Positions 16 to 7,625 of a stretch of 7,625 nt of DNA are shown here, in pieces. Source of the stretch: Candidatus Omnitrophota bacterium (lineage in GTDB: Bacteria; Omnitrophota; Gorgyraeia; 2-02-FULL-51-18; JAGOUK01); the NCBI GenBank assembly GCA_020058965.1, contig JAGVCY010000058.1:1-7625 (forward strand). Direction: 5' to 3'. The number at the start of each line of letters is the position of its first letter. Within the stretch, counting starts at the first letter, position 1. Made by a program: the position numbers and the translations under genes. The notes beneath the pieces were generated by a model that worked only from the letters and a program-made list of their open reading frames with translations, ran no database searches and was not told the origin of the DNA.

Positions 16-127
16 CGATCCCTCCTGTGTATAAAATTTATATGGGCTTATTGTACTCCGCTTGTCCGTAAATATATTTATAAAAATTATTTCTTTACTC
101 CTGCCACCTCAAACGCTAAATTGCGTC
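16..127. promoter_or_regulatory. AT-rich divergent intergenic region, presumed promoters
   Basis: This spacer separates the left-edge minus-strand gene from recQ. It contains runs such as TATAAAATTTATAT and AAATATATTTATAAAAATTAT. Several -10-like hexamers can be read in both directions, but none pairs with a good -35 at 16-18 bp, so no single promoter is claimed. Its AT richness contrasts with the GC-richer coding sequence and argues that the in-frame TTG at 62 is not the recQ start. Confidence 0.35.
21..26 (-). promoter_or_regulatory. Strong Shine-Dalgarno for the left-edge gene
   Basis: The plus strand reads CCTCCT, so the minus strand has AGGAGG 5 nt before an ATG. This is the best ribosome binding site on the left side of the window and is what decides that a minus-strand gene begins here. 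AT-rich sequence just upstream on the same strand contains TATAAA-like hexamers that could serve as a -10 element, without a clear -35. Confidence 0.55.
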
Positions 128-1981
128 ATGCCGACTCATGCTCCCCCATCCCCCTTGACCGCTCAAAAAATGTCTCAGGCCCTCGAAGCACTGCGTTCGC
201 GCTTCGGGTACCAGGATTTCCGGCTCGAGCAGGAACATATTCTGGAAGCGATCTTTCGTCGGGAAGATCTGCTCGCCATCATGCCCACCGGCGGCGGCAA
301 ATCGCTCTGCTATCAGATTCCGGCCATTTTATCGGACGGCCTCACTGTGGTGATCTCGCCGCTCATCTCGCTCATGAAGGATCAAGTCGACGCTTTGCGC
401 CTGCTCGGCATCGAAGCGGCCTTCCTCAACTCGACGCTCACAACCAACCAATACGCCGATGTGATGCAAAACCTTCGTTCCGGCAAAACCAAGCTTCTCT
501 ATATCGCGCCCGAGCGGCTTTTTTCCCAGGACCGCCAATTTTTGGATTTTTTGCAGTCGCTCAAGGTTGACTTGTGCGCGATCGATGAAGCGCATTGTAT
601 TTCGCAATGGGGTCACGACTTTAGGCCGGAGTATCTCAAACTTTCAATTCTCAAGGAATATTTTCCAGGCGTCCCCGTCGCGGCATTTACTGCCACCGCT
701 GACCCGGCGACTCAGAAGGATATCCTGCATAAGCTCGGCTTGCGTAACCCCCGCACCTTCATCGCCAGCTTCGATCGCGCCAATATTCATTACCGCGTCG
801 AACCCAAGAGCCAATCCTACGGCCAGCTCGTTTCCTTTATTAAGCGCCGCCGCGACGAATCCGGCATCGTGTACTGCCTCTCCCGCCAGTCCGTCGAGAC
901 GCTGTGCGAAAAACTCCAGGCCGACGGCTTCTCCGCGCTTCCCTACCATGCCGGCCTGACCAAGGAAACGCGCGACCGCAATCAGGACCTCTTCCTCAAA
1001 GACGAAGTGAAGATCATGGGCGCGACCATCGCCTTCGGCATGGGCATCAACAAGTCCAACGTCCGCTTCGTCGCTCACATGGACATGCCAAAAAATATTG
1101 AAGGTTACTATCAGGAAACCGGCCGCGCGGGTCGCGACGGGCTGAAGAGCGACGCGCTTTTGTTTTACAGCTCCGGAGATTACGCCAAGCTCGCCAAATT
1201 TGCAGCGATCGACGGTAATCCCCAGCAGACCGCGATCCTACTCGCAAAGCTCGGCCGGATGAGCCGCTTCTGCGAGCTCAACACCTGCCGCCGCAAGCAC
1301 CTGCTTGAATACTTCGGCGAAACTTATGCGGGTGGGACGGGCGCGTCCTGCAATTCCTGCGACAATTGCACCAAAACGATCGTTCGCACCGACGAGTCCG
1401 ATCTGGCCAAAACGGTGATCCGCGCCGTGCAAACGCTCGGCGGCGCGTTTGGCGTGACGACGGTGGCGGATTTTTTAAAAGGGGCGGCTTCGGCCAAGTA
1501 CGCGGGGCGGCACGAGGGACTGGAGGGATACGGCGCGCTCAAAACTCACACCAAGGATACGATCAAGCGAAAAGTTCGGGAGCTGGTTGAGTTGGGAATC
1601 CTGCGGCAGGAAGGTAACGAGTATCCGGTCGTGCGACTGACGGCTAAAGCAGCCGGTGTTTTGGACGGCACCGAGCAGGTTCAGATGACCGTTCTCGCCC
1701 CGCGCATCGAAAAGGAAGAAAAGGGCAAGCCGGAGCGTAAAGAAAAACTCTCCGACCTCTCCTACGACGAAGCGCTGTTTGAAGAATTAAGAAAAGTGCG
1801 TAAGGTCCTCGCGACCCGCGAAAATGTCCCCGCCTACATGATTCTGTCCGACAAATCGCTGATCGAACTCTCCGCCCACAAACCCAAAAACATGGAAGCC
1901 CTTCAGGGCATCTACGGCTTCGGCAAGGTCAAGCTCGAAAAATACGGCTCCACCTTCCTCGACTCGATCAAAAAGTTTTAA
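128..1981 (+). CDS. recQ: ATP-dependent DNA helicase RecQ
   Basis: This is a 3'-5' superfamily 2 DNA helicase that acts in recombination and repair. With the ATG at 128 the protein has 617 residues, close to E. coli RecQ. Visible in order (numbering from 128): motif 0 FGYQDFRLEQ near 26-35, Walker A MPTGGGKS at 52-59, DEAH at 153-156 followed by CISQWGHDFRPEY, AFTATAD, AFGMGINKSNVRFV, and motif VI QETGRAGRDG from about 329. The zinc site is C387, C408, C411, C414 with spacing x20-x2-x2. A winged-helix region follows, and a C-terminal HRDC domain covers about the last 70 residues (YDEALFEELRKVRK to the end). All core motifs are intact. An in-frame TTG at 62 would add 22 residues from promoter-like AT-rich DNA and is unlikely; ATG at 170 (MSQALEALRSRFGY) is the other candidate. 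No start has a recognisable Shine-Dalgarno. It is convergent with the cluster to its right and probably unrelated to it. Confidence 0.95.
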   Translation: MPTHAPPSPLTAQKMSQALEALRSRFGYQDFRLEQEHILEAIFRREDLLAIMPTGGGKSLCYQIPAILSDGLTVVISPLISLMKDQVDALRLLGIEAAFLNSTLTTNQYADVMQNLRSGKTKLLYIAPERLFSQDRQFLDFLQSLKVDLCAIDEAHCISQWGHDFRPEYLKLSILKEYFPGVPVAAFTATADPATQKDILHKLGLRNPRTFIASFDRANIHYRVEPKSQSYGQLVSFIKRRRDESGIVYCLSRQSVETLCEKLQADGFSALPYHAGLTKETRDRNQDLFLKDEVKIMGATIAFGMGINKSNVRFVAHMDMPKNIEGYYQETGRAGRDGLKSDALLFYSSGDYAKLAKFAAIDGNPQQTAILLAKLGRMSRFCELNTCRRKHLLEYFGETYAGGTGASCNSCDNCTKTIVRTDESDLAKTVIRAVQTLGGAFGVTTVADFLKGAASAKYAGRHEGLEGYGALKTHTKDTIKRKVRELVELGILRQEGNEYPVVRLTAKAAGVLDGTEQVQMTVLAPRIEKEEKGKPERKEKLSDLSYDEALFEELRKVRKVLATRENVPAYMILSDKSLIELSAHKPKNMEALQGIYGFGKVKLEKYGSTFLDSIKKF

Positions 1982-2073: not shown

Positions 2074-3828
2074 TCAATACTTGAAGTTCCCCATCAGGGC
2101 AAAGAGATGGCCGTCGTACTGGGACCGGTCGTTGCGGTTGTTGAAGTTGAGGTAGGTGTAATCGAATTCGATCTCCCAATTGTCGTTGATCTCGCGCACG
2201 AAGGCGGTCTTCAGCGTCCAGTCATCACCGCGCTTTTGCCGCGTGCGCGCCGGAAACGCAAATTCGGGATATTGGGAGACCGCATAGGAACCCTTCACTT
2301 CGGTCGTCAGCTTGGGCGCGATCGGAAATCCCACCCCCGCGTCGAGCGTGACTTTATTGAGCACATTGTTATCACCCAGCGAGAAGTCGTGCCGATAGCT
2401 GGATCCCAATTTATAAAAGTAGTCCTTCACTTTGGGATCCGGGATCAACTTATGATCCAACCCGATCTCCTCGCTCCAGCCTTCCTTATTGGTGAATTCG
2501 GGTCTGCTGCCCGTGTCGTCCTTCTCGTTGTAGCTCACCGTGTTGGTGACCGACGGCTTGTAGTGCTCCGTCCAATCCCATTCGAGCTCAACGGTGTTCT
2601 TGTACCCAAGACCGTTGTACACGCCATGTTTGGCGTTGTGCGTCCCGCCATTGCGCATGACCACTTCAACGGGCTTGCCAAAAAGACTTCCGTTTTTATG
2701 ACCGAGCGAAATGCCGGCGATGTGGGTCAGCTTGTTCCGCTCGTCCAGCGAGCTGTCCACATACGTGTGCTTCAACGATCCGTCCAGCTTGATCAGCCAA
2801 TCATCCTTATCATAAACATTGAGCGTTCCGCCCAAATTGTACTGCCAGGTACCGGCGTCAATGTCCGCCGCCTTGCGCTGCTCGGCCACGTTCGAGCGCT
2901 TTTTGATATTACTGTCATACGTGTATCCAAAACCGCCCTTGATCTTGAACGGCCCTTTTTTCTTCTTCTCCGTTTTGAGCTTCTTATCCGCCTTCTTGGC
3001 ATAAGGACCGGCCGGGTCGTAGATCTTGGCGAAGCTCAGGTGCTTCTTGGCCTCCGCCGTCATCTTTAATTTTTTAAGCGCCGAGCCCCAGTCCTCATGC
3101 AGCGCGATGCCCAGCGGATCGAGCAGGGCCGCTTTTTCAAACACCGGGATGGCGTTGGCCGCAAGACCGGCCTTGGTCAGAGACGCGCCGGTGTAGCGCA
3201 GAACCATGACGTCCCCGGGGTATTGAGCGGCCATCACTTCGTAAGCGGCGGCGGCACCCGCAAAGTCCTTGGCGGCAAAAAGCTTGGACGCCGGGCTTTC
3301 GGTGAATTGCTTGGGCTTGATCGTCGACGCGGGAGGGTCGAGCGGATCCACGGAGCTCCCCGCGGACAGCTGCGCCGCCATCCGCGCGGCAACATCGGCC
3401 ACGACCGTGTCGGGATGCGCGGAAAGAATATCCTTCAACGTGGCCTGAGCGTCCGCCGCCTTCGAAGCGCGCGCCTGCGCTTCCGCCAAATAAAGCGCCG
3501 CTACGCCGTCGTCCGGCACGCTCTTTAACCGTGCCTGAAGGGGCTCGATACTCTCTTCGAAGCGGCCCGCGCGTCTCAGAGCGTTGGCCAACAACCGCTG
3601 ATACTCGCTCTTTTTGGGGTTCTTCGCGATCTCGGCTCGAATGGCCGAGACGGCTTCATCCGGATTGCCTTTACCCGTCAACTTGGCGGTCGGCGTCTTT
3701 AGAACCTTGCGATAATCCGTCAGGTCCAACTCTCCGGCCAAACCGGCGACCGGCCAAGCCAACATCGCCGTGCCGATGATCACAAGCGCAAAAAACTTAT
3801 AGCCCATCTGTTTAGCTCCTAAGCGCAT
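2074..3828 (-). CDS. Signal peptide + TPR domain + C-terminal outer-membrane beta-barrel protein (candidate polymer secretion porin)
   Basis: With the start at 3828 the protein has 584 residues. The signal peptide (GYKFFALVIIGTAMLAWPVAGLA) ends near residue 31. Alpha-helical TPR-like repeats cover about 45-275 (for example NPDEAVSAIRAEIAKNP, YQRLLANALRRAGRFEESI, AAYEVMAAQYPGDVMVLRYT). A Lys-rich linker (AKKADKKLKTEKKKKGPFK) lies at about 273-292. The remaining ~290 residues look like beta-barrel strands, beginning GGFGYTYDSN and ending LMGNFKY, with a terminal aromatic as in outer-membrane proteins. Known proteins with periplasmic TPRs before a barrel include PgaA, BcsC and PelB (polysaccharide export) and Slam (surface lipoprotein translocation). 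Export of the polymer made by this locus is therefore an inference from architecture. It is last in the minus-strand cluster and overlaps the acidic gene by 17 bp if 3828 is used. A start at 3807 is equally plausible. Confidence 0.8.
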   Translation of the reverse strand: MRLGAKQMGYKFFALVIIGTAMLAWPVAGLAGELDLTDYRKVLKTPTAKLTGKGNPDEAVSAIRAEIAKNPKKSEYQRLLANALRRAGRFEESIEPLQARLKSVPDDGVAALYLAEAQARASKAADAQATLKDILSAHPDTVVADVAARMAAQLSAGSSVDPLDPPASTIKPKQFTESPASKLFAAKDFAGAAAAYEVMAAQYPGDVMVLRYTGASLTKAGLAANAIPVFEKAALLDPLGIALHEDWGSALKKLKMTAEAKKHLSFAKIYDPAGPYAKKADKKLKTEKKKKGPFKIKGGFGYTYDSNIKKRSNVAEQRKAADIDAGTWQYNLGGTLNVYDKDDWLIKLDGSLKHTYVDSSLDERNKLTHIAGISLGHKNGSLFGKPVEVVMRNGGTHNAKHGVYNGLGYKNTVELEWDWTEHYKPSVTNTVSYNEKDDTGSRPEFTNKEGWSEEIGLDHKLIPDPKVKDYFYKLGSSYRHDFSLGDNNVLNKVTLDAGVGFPIAPKLTTEVKGSYAVSQYPEFAFPARTRQKRGDDWTLKTAFVREINDNWEIEFDYTYLNFNNRNDRSQYDGHLFALMGNFKY

Positions 3829-4222
3829 TGTCGACCTCCGCGTCCTCGGCCATCTGACCGCCTTCGGATTCAGCGGAATCGAGCTCATCTTCGCTCATGG
3901 GCTCATCGTCCTCGTCCTCATCCTCGGACAACTCGCCCTCGTCATCGTCGTCCATGTCGTCAAATATCTCGTCGACGGTCTCCTCGATCTCTTCATCCTC
4001 CGCTTCCTCAAATTCGTCGTCGGTGATCTCGTCTTCGGCCTGATCGTCTTCCTCGTCATCGATCTCATCGTCCGAATCAAACAGATCTTCCTCGTCATCG
4101 GCCCATGCCGCCTGAGATCCCAACCGGGGCAAAAGTTCGTCCCACTGAACCGCCAACGTGTTTAGCGGCAGGACCGTAAAAGCAAAGATCATCAGCAGTC
4201 TAAAAAGAAACGAGGTGGGCAT
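3812..4222 (-). CDS. Secreted hyperacidic (Asp/Glu-rich) protein
   Basis: I do not recognise a family. The 136-residue product starts with a hydrophobic export signal (MPTSFLFRLLMIFAFTVLPL), and a likely cleavage falls after AAWA at residue 41, though cleavage after LNTLA (24) is possible. Of the 95 residues after position 41, about 57 are Asp or Glu by hand count, with a single Arg near the C-terminus and no Lys. The tail is low-complexity and probably disordered. The start is supported by GGAGG 6 nt upstream (plus 4229-4233). The coding DNA is a TCN-type trinucleotide low-complexity tract on the plus strand. It is the first gene after the 252-bp spacer and is coupled to the TPR-barrel gene. 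Such a polyanion could bind Ca2+ or basic surfaces such as the Lys-rich linker of its neighbour; that is inference. No cysteine follows the signal peptide, so it is not a lipoprotein. Confidence 0.75.
   Translation of the reverse strand: MPTSFLFRLLMIFAFTVLPLNTLAVQWDELLPRLGSQAAWADDEEDLFDSDDEIDDEEDDQAEDEITDDEFEEAEDEEIEETVDEIFDDMDDDDEGELSEDEDEDDEPMSEDELDSAESEGGQMAEDAEVDNALRS
3816..3839 (-). promoter_or_regulatory. Two alternative ribosome binding sites for the TPR-barrel gene
   Basis: The minus strand has GGAGG (plus 3835-3839) 6 nt before the ATG at 3828, and AGGAG (plus 3816-3820) 8 nt before a second in-frame ATG at 3807. The first start overlaps the end of the acidic gene by 17 bp and gives a longer, more basic signal-peptide n-region (MRLGAKQMGYKFF). 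The second begins 4 nt after the acidic gene's stop and gives a compact signal peptide (MGYKFF). Both are inside or beside the upstream gene's end, consistent with translational coupling. Confidence 0.6.
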
Positions 4223-4269
4223 ATCGATCCTCCGTAAAGCGCATGAGTTTTAACAACAAATCAGTAAGA

Positions 4270-4299
4270 AATATATCAAATCTAGCTACGTGTTAGCAA
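4270..4299 (-). promoter_or_regulatory. Candidate sigma70-type promoter for the acidic/TPR-barrel gene pair
   Basis: On the minus strand TTGCTA (plus 4294-4299, 4 of 6 matches to TTGACA) is followed after 18 bp by TATATT (plus 4270-4275, 5 of 6 matches to TATAAT). This would place the transcript start about 40 nt before the acidic gene's ATG. The region is AT-rich, so chance matches are likely and this is only a candidate. Confidence 0.3.
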
Positions 4300-4332
4300 G
4301 ATTTAGTTTTAGTAACGATTTTTATGGTTAAG

Positions 4333-4352
4333 TTGGACCGGTTGGACCGGTC
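4333..4352. repeat. Tandem 9-mer with embedded inverted repeat
   Basis: TTGGACCGG occurs twice head to tail (4333-4341 and 4342-4350). The same stretch contains an inverted repeat GACCGGT (4336-4342) / ACCGGTC (4346-4352) around the 3-nt spacer TGG. It lies about 35 bp upstream of the candidate -35 on the minus strand, a position compatible with a regulator binding site. No U-tract follows it on either strand, so it does not look like an intrinsic terminator. Confidence 0.5.
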
Positions 4353-4474
4353 GGCTCAGGCGTGCCGGCAGAGCGCCGCAATCAGTTCTGCTGCTATGAT
4401 GCGGAGGAGAGGTCGGTTAACCTCAAATGGGTCGTACTCAAAACATAGACCGCCCTACGCAAGCAAAAAATCGG

Positions 4475-5572
4475 TTAGAAGTTAAAATCCGCCCCGAGCA
4501 TCACGATATGGTTGGAGTACCCAAGCACGTCATCGCGGGTTGTCAGCGAAGGGTCAATGTCCGTTGTGACATTTGATTCCACATATGAATATTTAGCCCC
4601 GACGCTGATGTTCTCGGTGAGATCGTAGTCAAGCCCTACCCCAACCGTGAAGATGTCGTCCTCCCGGCCCGCATGCAGCGGATCGCTCGCCACCGAATTA
4701 CTCGTGGTGTAATTCCGGAAGTCGTACTCATAGAACGGTGTGATATGCCATTTCGGCATGAACTCATAGTTCACATTAACACCCACCGCATGCTGGTCAT
4801 AAGAAATATCATCATCCACCGCGGGATCATTGTCGCTACCCTCGGCATCCAGTGTTGTATACACATAGTAGGGCGACACCTTCAGATTGGGCAACACATC
4901 GTCAAAAATAAGCTTAACATCGATGTTGTGGGTCAAATTGTCGCGTTCGTCAAAGGCACTCGCATAATCATTATCCTCAAGGACATAGAGAACCCTAAAC
5001 CGGATCACGCGAGTCAACCGCTTCCAATAGCTGACGCTGAACATGTCTTTTCCGAGCTCGGATTTGCTGTAACTGGCGGTGTCTTCATCAAACAGGTAGC
5101 GGTTAAAGTAACTGGGTAAGCGGGTGTAGCGGAATTTTACAATATCATCATATCGGGTCACACGCTGCTTGAATTCGAAGCTGTACTGCTGGTAATCCTT
5201 GTTGTCGTTCTCTCCGTAAATATTCCAATTGGATCTGAATTCAAAACGCGTCGGCCGGCCCTTCGCAAATTCCTTTTCGAGGTACACACCCGCCGTATAA
5301 TCCTGGACCCAGTCGTCAATACTTTCAACATCCACAAATTTGGTGGTGCGCTGCAATCCGGCATCATAGTTCTGGATGTCGTCATCCGAATAAGATTGCG
5401 CGTTCGATTCATAACGGCCGCCGACCGATCCGGTGAGCGCGGCATCCATCCCGGAATCACCGATATTGCTCCAATGGAAGGGATTGGATTCCGTTTGGGC
5501 GGCCCATACATCACCACCGCCGAACGCCAGGAACATCGTCGACACAACCGTTATCGTTCGAATCAATTTCAT
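4475..5572 (-). CDS. Outer-membrane beta-barrel protein (putative porin-like)
   Basis: The 365-residue product begins with a signal peptide (MKLIRTITVVSTMFLAFGGG, cleavage near DVWA-AQ at about 24). After that it consists of alternating amphipathic, aromatic-rich strands with Asp/Asn-rich turns, for example VGGRYESNAQSYSDDD, FEFRSNWNIYGEND, HITPFYEYDFRNY and ISVGAKYSYVESN. It ends ADFNF, the terminal Phe expected for BAM-assembled barrels. The size and style are like the putative beta-barrel porin 2 / EpsL-like proteins often coded in extracellular polymer loci, but that family call is from memory of the pattern. The start at 5572 is chosen because AAGGA lies 7 nt upstream (plus 5580-5584); the in-frame ATG at 5590 has no such site and would add six residues (MTKDDD) that spoil the signal peptide. 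It is 31 bp downstream of the basic anchored protein, so probably co-transcribed with it. Channel or structural role for the exported polymer is inferred. Confidence 0.8.
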   Translation of the reverse strand: MKLIRTITVVSTMFLAFGGGDVWAAQTESNPFHWSNIGDSGMDAALTGSVGGRYESNAQSYSDDDIQNYDAGLQRTTKFVDVESIDDWVQDYTAGVYLEKEFAKGRPTRFEFRSNWNIYGENDNKDYQQYSFEFKQRVTRYDDIVKFRYTRLPSYFNRYLFDEDTASYSKSELGKDMFSVSYWKRLTRVIRFRVLYVLEDNDYASAFDERDNLTHNIDVKLIFDDVLPNLKVSPYYVYTTLDAEGSDNDPAVDDDISYDQHAVGVNVNYEFMPKWHITPFYEYDFRNYTTSNSVASDPLHAGREDDIFTVGVGLDYDLTENISVGAKYSYVESNVTTDIDPSLTTRDDVLGYSNHIVMLGADFNF

Positions 5573-5603
5573 GTCATCATCCTTTGTCATGCGATCGCCA
5601 AGA

Positions 5604-6587
5604 TTATAAAGAAACCCCCGGAACAGCCGACGCCATCACCGGCTCCGACACGGGAGCGGCATAGGCCCTTGCCAACACTCGACTGACTCCTCTTCGTCCA
5701 ACGGCAAAAATAGAGTACCTATGCTTTCCAACCGGCACGTAAGTATACACAAATGCGGAGCGGCCGACAACTGTTCCCGCATCCGCGCCCGCAATCGTAA
5801 CACCCTCGTCTTTAGGGACCAACATGTTCCTCTTGATCTTAATTTTTGAGTCCTGTCGGATCAGGATCGCGTAATCGGCCTTGCCGGTCATCGGATCACC
5901 CGTTCCCGCCCACCGCGTAAGCAACCTGAGTTGTGCCGGACCCTCCACGTCGAACACGACGCTCTTTTTTGATCCCAAGCGGTGGTAATTTCTGTCCTTG
6001 CCACCCACCTGGATGAGTACTTTTTTTCCCGCGCGTGAGGGTCTGATCCGGCTCCACAAATACTCCCGCACTATGGATGTCTGGTACAAAAACCTCACAT
6101 TCACTCGCCCGTTTTGTTTTGCCGGCATTGTCAGCTGAACCCGGTGCAAACCGTCGGGCACATTGACCCGGTATGTTCGAAGTCGCCCCAGGGCGAACCT
6201 CGGGTCTGATTCGTAGCGGGTCATGTAGGATCGGGAATTGCTTCGCGAGTACTGCCGGCCCTTTTGACTATCCAATTGGACGCGCAGGATGTATCGTCCG
6301 TTGGGAGTGCTACTCACAGAGTCCAGATGGCCCCGGGTCAAAATATCCAGCCGGCCAGGCCCCTGAACTTCGACCGCAAGTCGATCTCCCTGAGCGATCT
6401 GCTGATATTCATTGCGCTTGCCTTGCGTCACCAGGACGACCGGGTTGATCGGAATGAGGGGCCGTAGCACCATTCTGTTTTGATCTCTTTCCGCCAATTC
6501 CTTATGGCTTCCCACCCATACCCATCCGACTATGGCTGCGATGAGAATGAAGACATACAACTTCGCATAGCCCTTTGGGACCGTCAT
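5604..6587 (-). CDS. Basic inner-membrane-anchored periplasmic protein with internal duplication
   Basis: I do not recognise a named family. The 327-residue protein has one N-terminal membrane segment (about 10-26, LYVFILIAAIVGWVWVG) without an obvious cleavage site, so it is probably anchored with its bulk in the periplasm. The rest is two related beta-rich units: about 50-166 and 189-310. Matching landmarks are VEVQGPGRLDILTR (72-85) with FDVEGPAQLRLLTR (212-225), and YRVNVPDGLHRVQL (139-152) with YTYVPVGKHRYSIF (271-284). By hand count it has about 53 Arg/Lys against 23 Asp/Glu, strongly cationic, which would suit contact with a polyanion. Its ATG overlaps the stop of the PgsW-like gene in an ATGA arrangement (6584-6587) and it has no Shine-Dalgarno of its own, so it is probably made by translational coupling. 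A role in poly-gamma-glutamate handling is inferred from this coupling. Confidence 0.75.
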   Translation of the reverse strand: MTVPKGYAKLYVFILIAAIVGWVWVGSHKELAERDQNRMVLRPLIPINPVVLVTQGKRNEYQQIAQGDRLAVEVQGPGRLDILTRGHLDSVSSTPNGRYILRVQLDSQKGRQYSRSNSRSYMTRYESDPRFALGRLRTYRVNVPDGLHRVQLTMPAKQNGRVNVRFLYQTSIVREYLWSRIRPSRAGKKVLIQVGGKDRNYHRLGSKKSVVFDVEGPAQLRLLTRWAGTGDPMTGKADYAILIRQDSKIKIKRNMLVPKDEGVTIAGADAGTVVGRSAFVYTYVPVGKHRYSIFAVGRRGVSRVLARAYAAPVSEPVMASAVPGVSL

Positions 6588-7625
6588 TGATCGCGCCGTT
6601 TATTTCGCAACGACCGCCGTGCAAAAAGTTTTGGCAGGAGGTGCAGATCGGTCTCGATGCAGATGACCATGGCCGTGACGATCGCGACAAGAGTCATGAG
6701 AATGGGCCCTAATTTGTACTTTTCGTCGGCAAAGACCTTGCCCACGCCAACTTCCGGAAGCGGAACCGGGAAAAGTGGTAGTCCATACTGTCCGGCCAGT
6801 TTCTGCATGTGCAACAAATGAATGATGGGGATTTGGCGCTCTGCCATTGCCACCATTACACCGCGCCTGTAAAACCGGGATACGTCGATATCTTTGTTCA
6901 GTCCGGGAACAAATAGATCGCCATTGGATACGGTCCCCAAACTCGCGGCGCCTCCTCCGACATTGATAAATGCCCTGATCGGCGTCCCCTCGGACTGTCG
7001 GTCATAGATCTGCATGCGGCGGTCGGCGGAGGCGTCAACGTCATCTTCCTGGATCAGTTCAAGTCCATTGCGACGGATAGCTTCCAAGATCACCTTGCGC
7101 CCTTCATCGGGGTTTGATCTCGCCTGGTCTCCGGATCCACCCATTGAAGCCGCAACACTGCCGCGACTAAAGACTCCCTTTTTTACCAAGTACGCTTCCA
7201 TATCGAGCCAGGTAAACTCCGGATTGGTCGCGCCCCAGCTGGAAGCGCCGACGGAGCTGATGAGGATCAGCTTGATGCCGAGCGCCTCACAGGCGGACAT
7301 CACGGCAATATTGGCTCCTGGCATCGAGCCGGTGAACGAAGCCGCGACGACATCGCCCTTTTGAACACCGGCTTTTTTAAGCAGATCCACCACGACCGCC
7401 GCGAAGTTGGGCTGTGTCGCGATCAGCTTGGATTCCAGAAGGCCTTTATCGGTCGTGATCAGGGTCTCTTGAGGCCCCACCAGTCCGGTTGAGTTGGGGT
7501 CAAAACGGAGATCCGTCTCGATCCTGAGGTTTTGAACCCGTTCCTGAATGAGCTTTACGGCCGAATCCATGATCGATGCCGCGCCGACCTTGTCCTTGTA
7601 CCATGGATCCAGCCGCACCGAAGTG
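6584..7625 (-). CDS. pgsW: Poly-gamma-glutamate system protein (PgsW-like), 5' end outside the window
   Basis: The frame is open to the right edge with no stop; the GTG at 7618 is not a convincing start, so the gene is treated as partial, with its N-terminus (probably a membrane segment) missing. About 347 codons are visible. The sequence matches my recollection of the family named poly-gamma-glutamate system protein, found beside PgsB/PgsC synthetase genes. Landmarks are GLVGPQETLITTDKGLLESK, the TQPNFAAVVVDLLKKAGVQ segment, GDVVAASFTGSMPGANIAV, SVGASSWGATNPEFTWLDM, ASMGGSGDQA and FINVGGGAASLG. One C-terminal membrane helix (LGPILMTLVAIVTAMVICI) is followed by a basic tail (KLFARRSLRNKRRDQ), so the main domain is likely extracytoplasmic with the tail inside. 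The biochemical role of the family is not established. It overlaps the next gene by 4 bp. The family call is fairly firm; the symbol is less certain. Confidence 0.8.
   Translation of the reverse strand, partial: TSVRLDPWYKDKVGAASIMDSAVKLIQERVQNLRIETDLRFDPNSTGLVGPQETLITTDKGLLESKLIATQPNFAAVVVDLLKKAGVQKGDVVAASFTGSMPGANIAVMSACEALGIKLILISSVGASSWGATNPEFTWLDMEAYLVKKGVFSRGSVAASMGGSGDQARSNPDEGRKVILEAIRRNGLELIQEDDVDASADRRMQIYDRQSEGTPIRAFINVGGGAASLGTVSNGDLFVPGLNKDIDVSRFYRRGVMVAMAERQIPIIHLLHMQKLAGQYGLPLFPVPLPEVGVGKVFADEKYKLGPILMTLVAIVTAMVICIETDLHLLPKLFARRSLRNKRRDQ

Follow-up and report, generated by a model that had tools for sequence, protein, structure and literature searches.

Poly-gamma-glutamate (PGA) is synthesised by PgsB together with PgsC, and the Bacillus locus for it is PgsBCA/CapBCA. 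We analysed a 7,625-base stretch of DNA from a Candidatus Omnitrophota bacterium (hereafter, the window), which carries pgsW, a gene for a cationic protein (the guide) and a gene for a predicted outer-membrane barrel, and we compared this locus with described systems. The cassette to which these genes belong, pgsB-pgsC-pgsW-guide-barrel, resembles the Bacillus locus in its equivalogs of PgsB and PgsC, which keep their order, but differs in what comes after them: PgsW, a predicted periplasmic guide and a predicted barrel, and no PgsA/CapA. Francisella capBCA, likened by name and not by sequence, is a three-gene locus of a Gram-negative organism with B, C and a third gene, and the excerpts of its reports mention no guide or barrel. 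Francisella CapA is labelled in one excerpted table as a hypothetical poly-gamma-glutamate system protein, which is the name of the PgsW family (PMC5362203). According to the excerpt of a review, CapA may be a partner of CapB and CapC in export; the capsule is reported to form without need of capB or capC, and the capsule role of the locus is doubtful (PMC4688374).

PGA synthesis genes in two-membraned (diderm) bacteria are already known. In the excerpts surveyed, the published PGA capsule model makes both CapB and CapC mandatory (CapsuleFinder, PMC5542703), CapBC and PGA transport are reported in general terms to be encoded by Ace Lake Cloacimonadota (PMC8542988), and Fusobacterium nucleatum is named as a Gram-negative that produces PGA (PMC3815933). 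The CapsuleFinder and Ace Lake loci resemble the present cassette in having CapB and CapC in diderm phyla, and the same excerpts name no outer-membrane part for PGA. Across the literature surveyed, mostly titles and the starts of abstracts, no protein was named for the outer-membrane step and no description of the cassette was recognised; by title, none of the four papers containing the word PgsW was about this protein, and the family name turned up in a single paper, the one on Francisella CapA.

The layout of the cassette recalls that of cellulose export. Like Bcs A-B-C, it would combine an inner-membrane synthase, a tandem periplasmic protein predicted to resemble carbohydrate-binding modules (CBMs) and an outer-membrane barrel, and BcsB is among the fold matches of the guide. 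It differs from Bcs in having a Mur-ligase-like synthetase candidate and no glycosyltransferase, a guide without a Pfam match and a predicted 14-strand barrel without a TPR match. With respect to the Bcs/Pga/Alg/Pel systems in general, the synthetase candidate is a Mur-ligase-domain protein instead of a glycosyltransferase, and the putative exporter of the window matched no TPR family.

The pgsB-pgsC-pgsW-guide-barrel cassette

The preliminary description of the window had placed five genes on one strand, and these were confirmed on the minus strand from the open reading frames (ORFs; Table 1). Its assignment of the first to the PgsW family was borne out by a TIGR04332 score of 293.4 bits against a subfamily cut-off of 100. 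The window is a complete contig (G000:C289) of a metagenome-assembled genome (1.68 Mb, 307 contigs, 72% completeness), which leaves no sequence to the right in which to look for pgsB and pgsC, as the description had proposed. The genome as a whole gave one PgsW match and one PgsB match. The PgsB candidate, a Mur-ligase-domain protein on contig C230, scored 393.7 bits against the TIGR04012 equivalog cut-off of 222.7. After pgsB comes pgsC (109.3 bits against the TIGR04011 equivalog cut-off of 96.45, and also matching PF14102), truncated by the contig end at base 8101. Both genes thus stand at a contig end that fits the right end of the window. Because the window PgsW is about 28 N-terminal residues short in alignment with a full-length relative, and because pgsC and pgsW abut or overlap in L007 (GenBank JAFGCM010000121.1, Candidatus Omnitrophota), the two contig ends are probably separated by about 0.1 kb.

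Table 1. Features of the 7,625-base window
Feature	Position	Strand	Description
recQ	62-1981	+	convergent with the cassette genes
TPR and presumed barrel protein	2074-3807	-	TPR_16 E 4e-9; judged outside the cassette
Hyperacidic protein	3812-4222	-	signal-like N terminus; net charge -56 in 136 aa; judged outside the cassette
Intergenic gap	4223-4474	-	252 bp after the cassette barrel
Barrel ('omp')	4475-5590	-	outer-membrane barrel of 14 strands (predicted); mouth conserved and predicted to be extracellular
Guide ('cat')	5604-6587	-	helix at the N terminus, then two beta-sandwich domains in tandem (model); net charge +30; periplasmic location predicted
pgsW	6584-7624	-	TIGR04332; 5' end truncated by the contig end

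A one-genome-per-species scan yielded 16 PgsW loci; these, together with further fetched regions, were searched with profiles grown on the window and L007 sequences. The five genes occurred in the order given above on a single strand in 69 fetched loci, a few of them with a gene cut or broken (L010, L016, L021 and L105). These loci comprised a set of 39 (L007-L010, L016-L018, L021, L022 and L087-L116), eight more (L149-L156), 19 of 20 Fidelibacterota regions and three others; L005 (9,335 bases, from G067, a class-mate of the window genome) duplicates L007 and was dropped from the counts. They represent Calditrichota, Fidelibacterota (Marinimicrobia), Ignavibacteriota, WOR-3, Eisenbacteria and a second Omnitrophota. 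The median intergenic gaps in the 39-locus set were -4, -11, 14.5 and 2 bp, with a maximum of 589. The cassette is divided by contig ends in the window, in G427 and in G805, the 20th Fidelibacterota region sampled.

The linkage of pgsW and the guide was also followed genome by genome. PgsW was found in 39 of 39 Calditrichota genomes and the guide in 37; the two without a guide (G442 and G448) carry only the orphan kind of PgsW described below. Among 245 Fidelibacterota genomes, PgsW occurred in 100 and the guide in 92: both in 91, pgsW only in nine, the guide only in one and neither in 144. By these counts, the cassette would be present in nearly all Calditrichota and over one third of the Fidelibacterota genomes searched. 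Fidelibacterota loci were fetched from 20 of the 92 guide-bearing genomes, from G927, from the other contig of G805 and from eight of the nine pgsW-only genomes (G868 left out). G927, the guide-only genome, carries the guide and barrel at a contig end. The eight pgsW-only genomes comprised three with a divergent guide and barrel, two with a barrel and no guide, one in which the locus breaks off at a contig end and two without either gene. In G867 and G869 the barrel directly follows an enlarged PgsW and the guide is absent; the PgsW proteins at these loci (L206 and L205, respectively) have 461 aa, partly from an Asp/Asn-rich stretch near the C terminus. In regards to Omnitrophota, PgsW is rare (3 of 384 genomes; 2 of 99 among the nearest kin), and in the class of the L009 genome a guide match was found in 10 of 245, one of them (G688) within an unrelated protein.

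In a PgsW tree of 56 rows (L005 and L021 omitted), the window stood beside L007 with support 94/63. Six Planctomycetes-Verrucomicrobia-Nitrospira rows without guide or barrel fell in one starred clade, and the cassette rows did not form one clade. All nine orphan PgsW formed one clade. A second, orphan PgsW (323-329 aa) stands beside a gamma-glutamyltransferase gene in four of the nine orphan loci fetched (L117, L118, L121 and L122, Calditrichota); L121 also has a DctM-family permease, and L117 a weakly TRAP-like permease and an AstE/AspA-like gene. These loci perhaps encode a system for scavenging PGA or gamma-glutamyl compounds.

Additional genes were observed around the cassette. Directly upstream of pgsB in the window genome lies a gene (L006:5221-6408) whose 395-aa product has a signal-like N terminus and falls in no recognised family; we considered this product as a PGA hydrolase and rejected it, with no Pfam or NCBIfam match and a single weak match to a solved structure (E 0.085). 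Among six post-barrel genes scanned, three encode an LVIVD-repeat protein, lipoprotein-like by eye (L009:10416-11429, L150 and L208), a possible sixth cassette part, and the other three have no Pfam match. A search of 25 genomes for PF09587, the family of Bacillus-type PgsA/CapA, gave matches in 13, outside the cassette there, and none in 11 others or in the window genome, which is 72% complete. A plasmid megablast of the window matched solely a 50-base stretch of recQ, and an Rfam search of the window gave zero matches.

Predicted structures of the guide and the barrel

The guide is a tandem repeat of one domain, a predicted CBM-like beta-sandwich, preceded in the model by a helix at residues 5-35, and its fold matches include tandem CBMs. 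The net charge was positive in 39 of 41 guides. No Pfam family was listed for the window guide up to E 10, and it showed no BcsB membership by sequence. A single-sequence protein search retrieved only the guide itself and a profile search only four more proteins; the family came to light through genome searches. Guide homologues without adjacent pgs genes were seen in L055:8510-9475 (G411) and L123 (G429). That of G411 sits amid genes that by eye resemble those of a racemase, an aminotransferase and arginine synthesis, which hints at a glutamate-related role.

The barrel model (predicted local distance difference test score, pLDDT, 83.8) has the 14 strands of CymA/OmpG-type barrels, as a prediction only, and its best fold matches are the channels CymA and OmpG. 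It differs from these in its conserved outer loops and in sequence: its profile matched none of the solved chains up to E 1, and no TPR family matched the barrel. Among 11 hand-picked representatives, conservation was 0.60 in the loops, 0.48 in the strands and 0.39 in the periplasmic turns, and all nine invariant residues, including Asp93, Arg164, Glu215, His306 and Arg309, lie at the outer end. In a set of 64 sequences, 23 positions reached a conservation of about 80% or higher; 22 of these were at the outer end, and Asp93 was no longer one of the 23. Removal of gappy columns before scoring (in the 64-sequence set, 9 of the 94 positions in loops, 2 of the 25 in turns and 1 of the 203 in strands) may slightly favour the loops, the orientation is predicted, and Calditrichota and Fidelibacterota are heavily represented in the 37- and 64-sequence sets. 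A strongly cationic lumen was considered as a sign of polyanion transport and rejected on the near-neutral charge count given below.

Proposed export route and alternatives

On balance, the cassette probably encodes a dedicated machine for PGA synthesis and for export of the polymer through the outer membrane. At the inner membrane, PgsB and PgsC together would build the glutamate chain, with PgsW standing where Bacillus has PgsA/CapA. The guide usually carries a positive net charge and starts with a membrane-anchor or signal helix; it would keep the polyanion in the periplasm in the way that BcsB keeps cellulose. The barrel would then release the polymer, its conserved outer mouth serving as a gate or binding site. 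Both roles, that of the guide as carrier of the chain and that of the barrel as its outlet, are inferred from the constant linkage, the predicted location and the predicted fold.

Several observations weigh against this route. The barrel lumen is near neutral, with a mean of about 20 Lys/Arg versus 18 Asp/Glu and, in the window barrel, 16 versus 19, residue facing being assigned by a hydropathy parity heuristic and not from coordinates. The guide model has a low predicted template modelling score (0.50), unrelated beta-sandwich proteins are among its best fold matches, the top match is a protein other than BcsB, and 2 of 41 guides are net negative. Ten pgsBCW loci (L011-L015, L019, L020, L024, L202 and L204) have no guide or barrel nearby, which indicates that the two genes are dispensable in some lineages. 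They come from Planctomycetes, Verrucomicrobia, Nitrospiraceae, a Tissierellales-titled record, one Omnitrophota and two Fidelibacterota, and eight are free of contig-end doubt and outside the sole monoderm-titled record. No guide was found genome-wide in six of the genomes of L011-L020 that lack the pair locally (that of L013 left out) or in G239. Neighbouring genes were noted at two of the ten loci: L204 (G929) is flanked by an Asp/Glu racemase-family gene and by the gene of a sorting-tail protein with a weak N-formylglutamate amidohydrolase match, and in L024 (G239, Omnitrophota) a gamma-glutamylcyclotransferase-like protein (1226-1801) directly follows pgsBCW.

Conservation of the outer mouth also fits a binder or an enzyme. 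The barrel could be a surface anchor or processing enzyme whose mouth binds, cuts or tethers PGA leaving by another route, much as Wzi anchors capsule and omptins cut at the outer rim. The predicted extracellular loops, the most conserved zone of the barrel, the invariant residues at its outer end and the balanced lumen charge all favour such a role; however, the top fold matches are channels, the barrel gene was the only outer-membrane gene observed to recur constantly in the cassette, and two loci retain the barrel without the guide. We regard this alternative as unlikely, though as the likeliest of the alternatives. It is less probable still that the product is a related polymer, such as a different amino acid chain, gamma-linked or mixed, or that the enzymes gamma-glutamylate another molecule. 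No tested product of the cassette genes was found for these phyla, and excerpts of the Francisella literature report capB and capC as dispensable for the capsule (PMC4688374) and give CapA the PgsW family name (PMC5362203). Against this stand the scores of PgsB and PgsC, each above its equivalog cut-off, and the gamma-glutamyltransferase genes that adjoin four of the nine fetched orphan PgsW copies.

The preliminary description had taken all five window genes for a possible PGA export locus. This is supported for pgsW, the cationic protein and the barrel, which form one cassette with pgsBC across several phyla, and is not supported for the hyperacidic protein and the TPR-barrel protein. Their genes lie directly downstream on the same strand, and PgaA and BcsC likewise join TPRs to a barrel, so that the TPR-barrel protein might be a PgaA/BcsC-like exit pore and the acidic protein a further export part; the match of the TPR-barrel protein to the PgaA profile is weak (E 0.002, far below the cut-off). 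We consider this very improbable. The ORFs of all 69 cassette loci, with at least 2 kb of sequence beyond the barrel in 55 and at least 3 kb in 44, contained no relative of either protein and no comparably acidic ORF. The TPR protein was matched in 16 of the 99 genomes of the nearest Omnitrophota kin, its own included, six others matching most of the C-terminal part; none of the 15 other genomes has pgsW, and G067, the sole other pgsW carrier, has no match. Because of these absences, together with the 252-bp gap before the acidic gene, the two genes most likely form a separate unit. A promoter-like site in the gap (4299-4270; TTGCTA, 18 nt, TATATT) belongs to a type found at chance frequency in the region (4 found, 3.5 expected). 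The TPR ORF spans 2074-3888, and its likelier start is the ATG at 3807, 4 bases after the acidic gene's stop. A conserved pairing of an acidic gene with the TPR-barrel elsewhere was weakly borne out: in five of eight TPR-relative loci the next gene product contains 10-15% Asp/Glu with 2-4% Lys/Arg, which makes it much less acidic than that of the window, to which it may be unrelated.

With the export route through the barrel as the preferred reading, the two-gene module behind pgsBCW provides candidates, with testable residues, for the outer-membrane step, and PGA export from two-membraned cells becomes testable through a cassette common to six phyla. We hold at about even chances the broader proposal that an amide polymer came to be handled in diderms by a machine that spans the envelope as cellulose synthase does. 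Its synthetase would be of the Mur-ligase type, its guide, of tandem CBM fold, would carry polyglutamate, and its gated barrel of 14 strands would itself be the exit through the outer membrane. If these proposals are true, an amide polymer would be exported on the layout of cellulose export, and a surface polymer would be predicted for many uncultured lineages.

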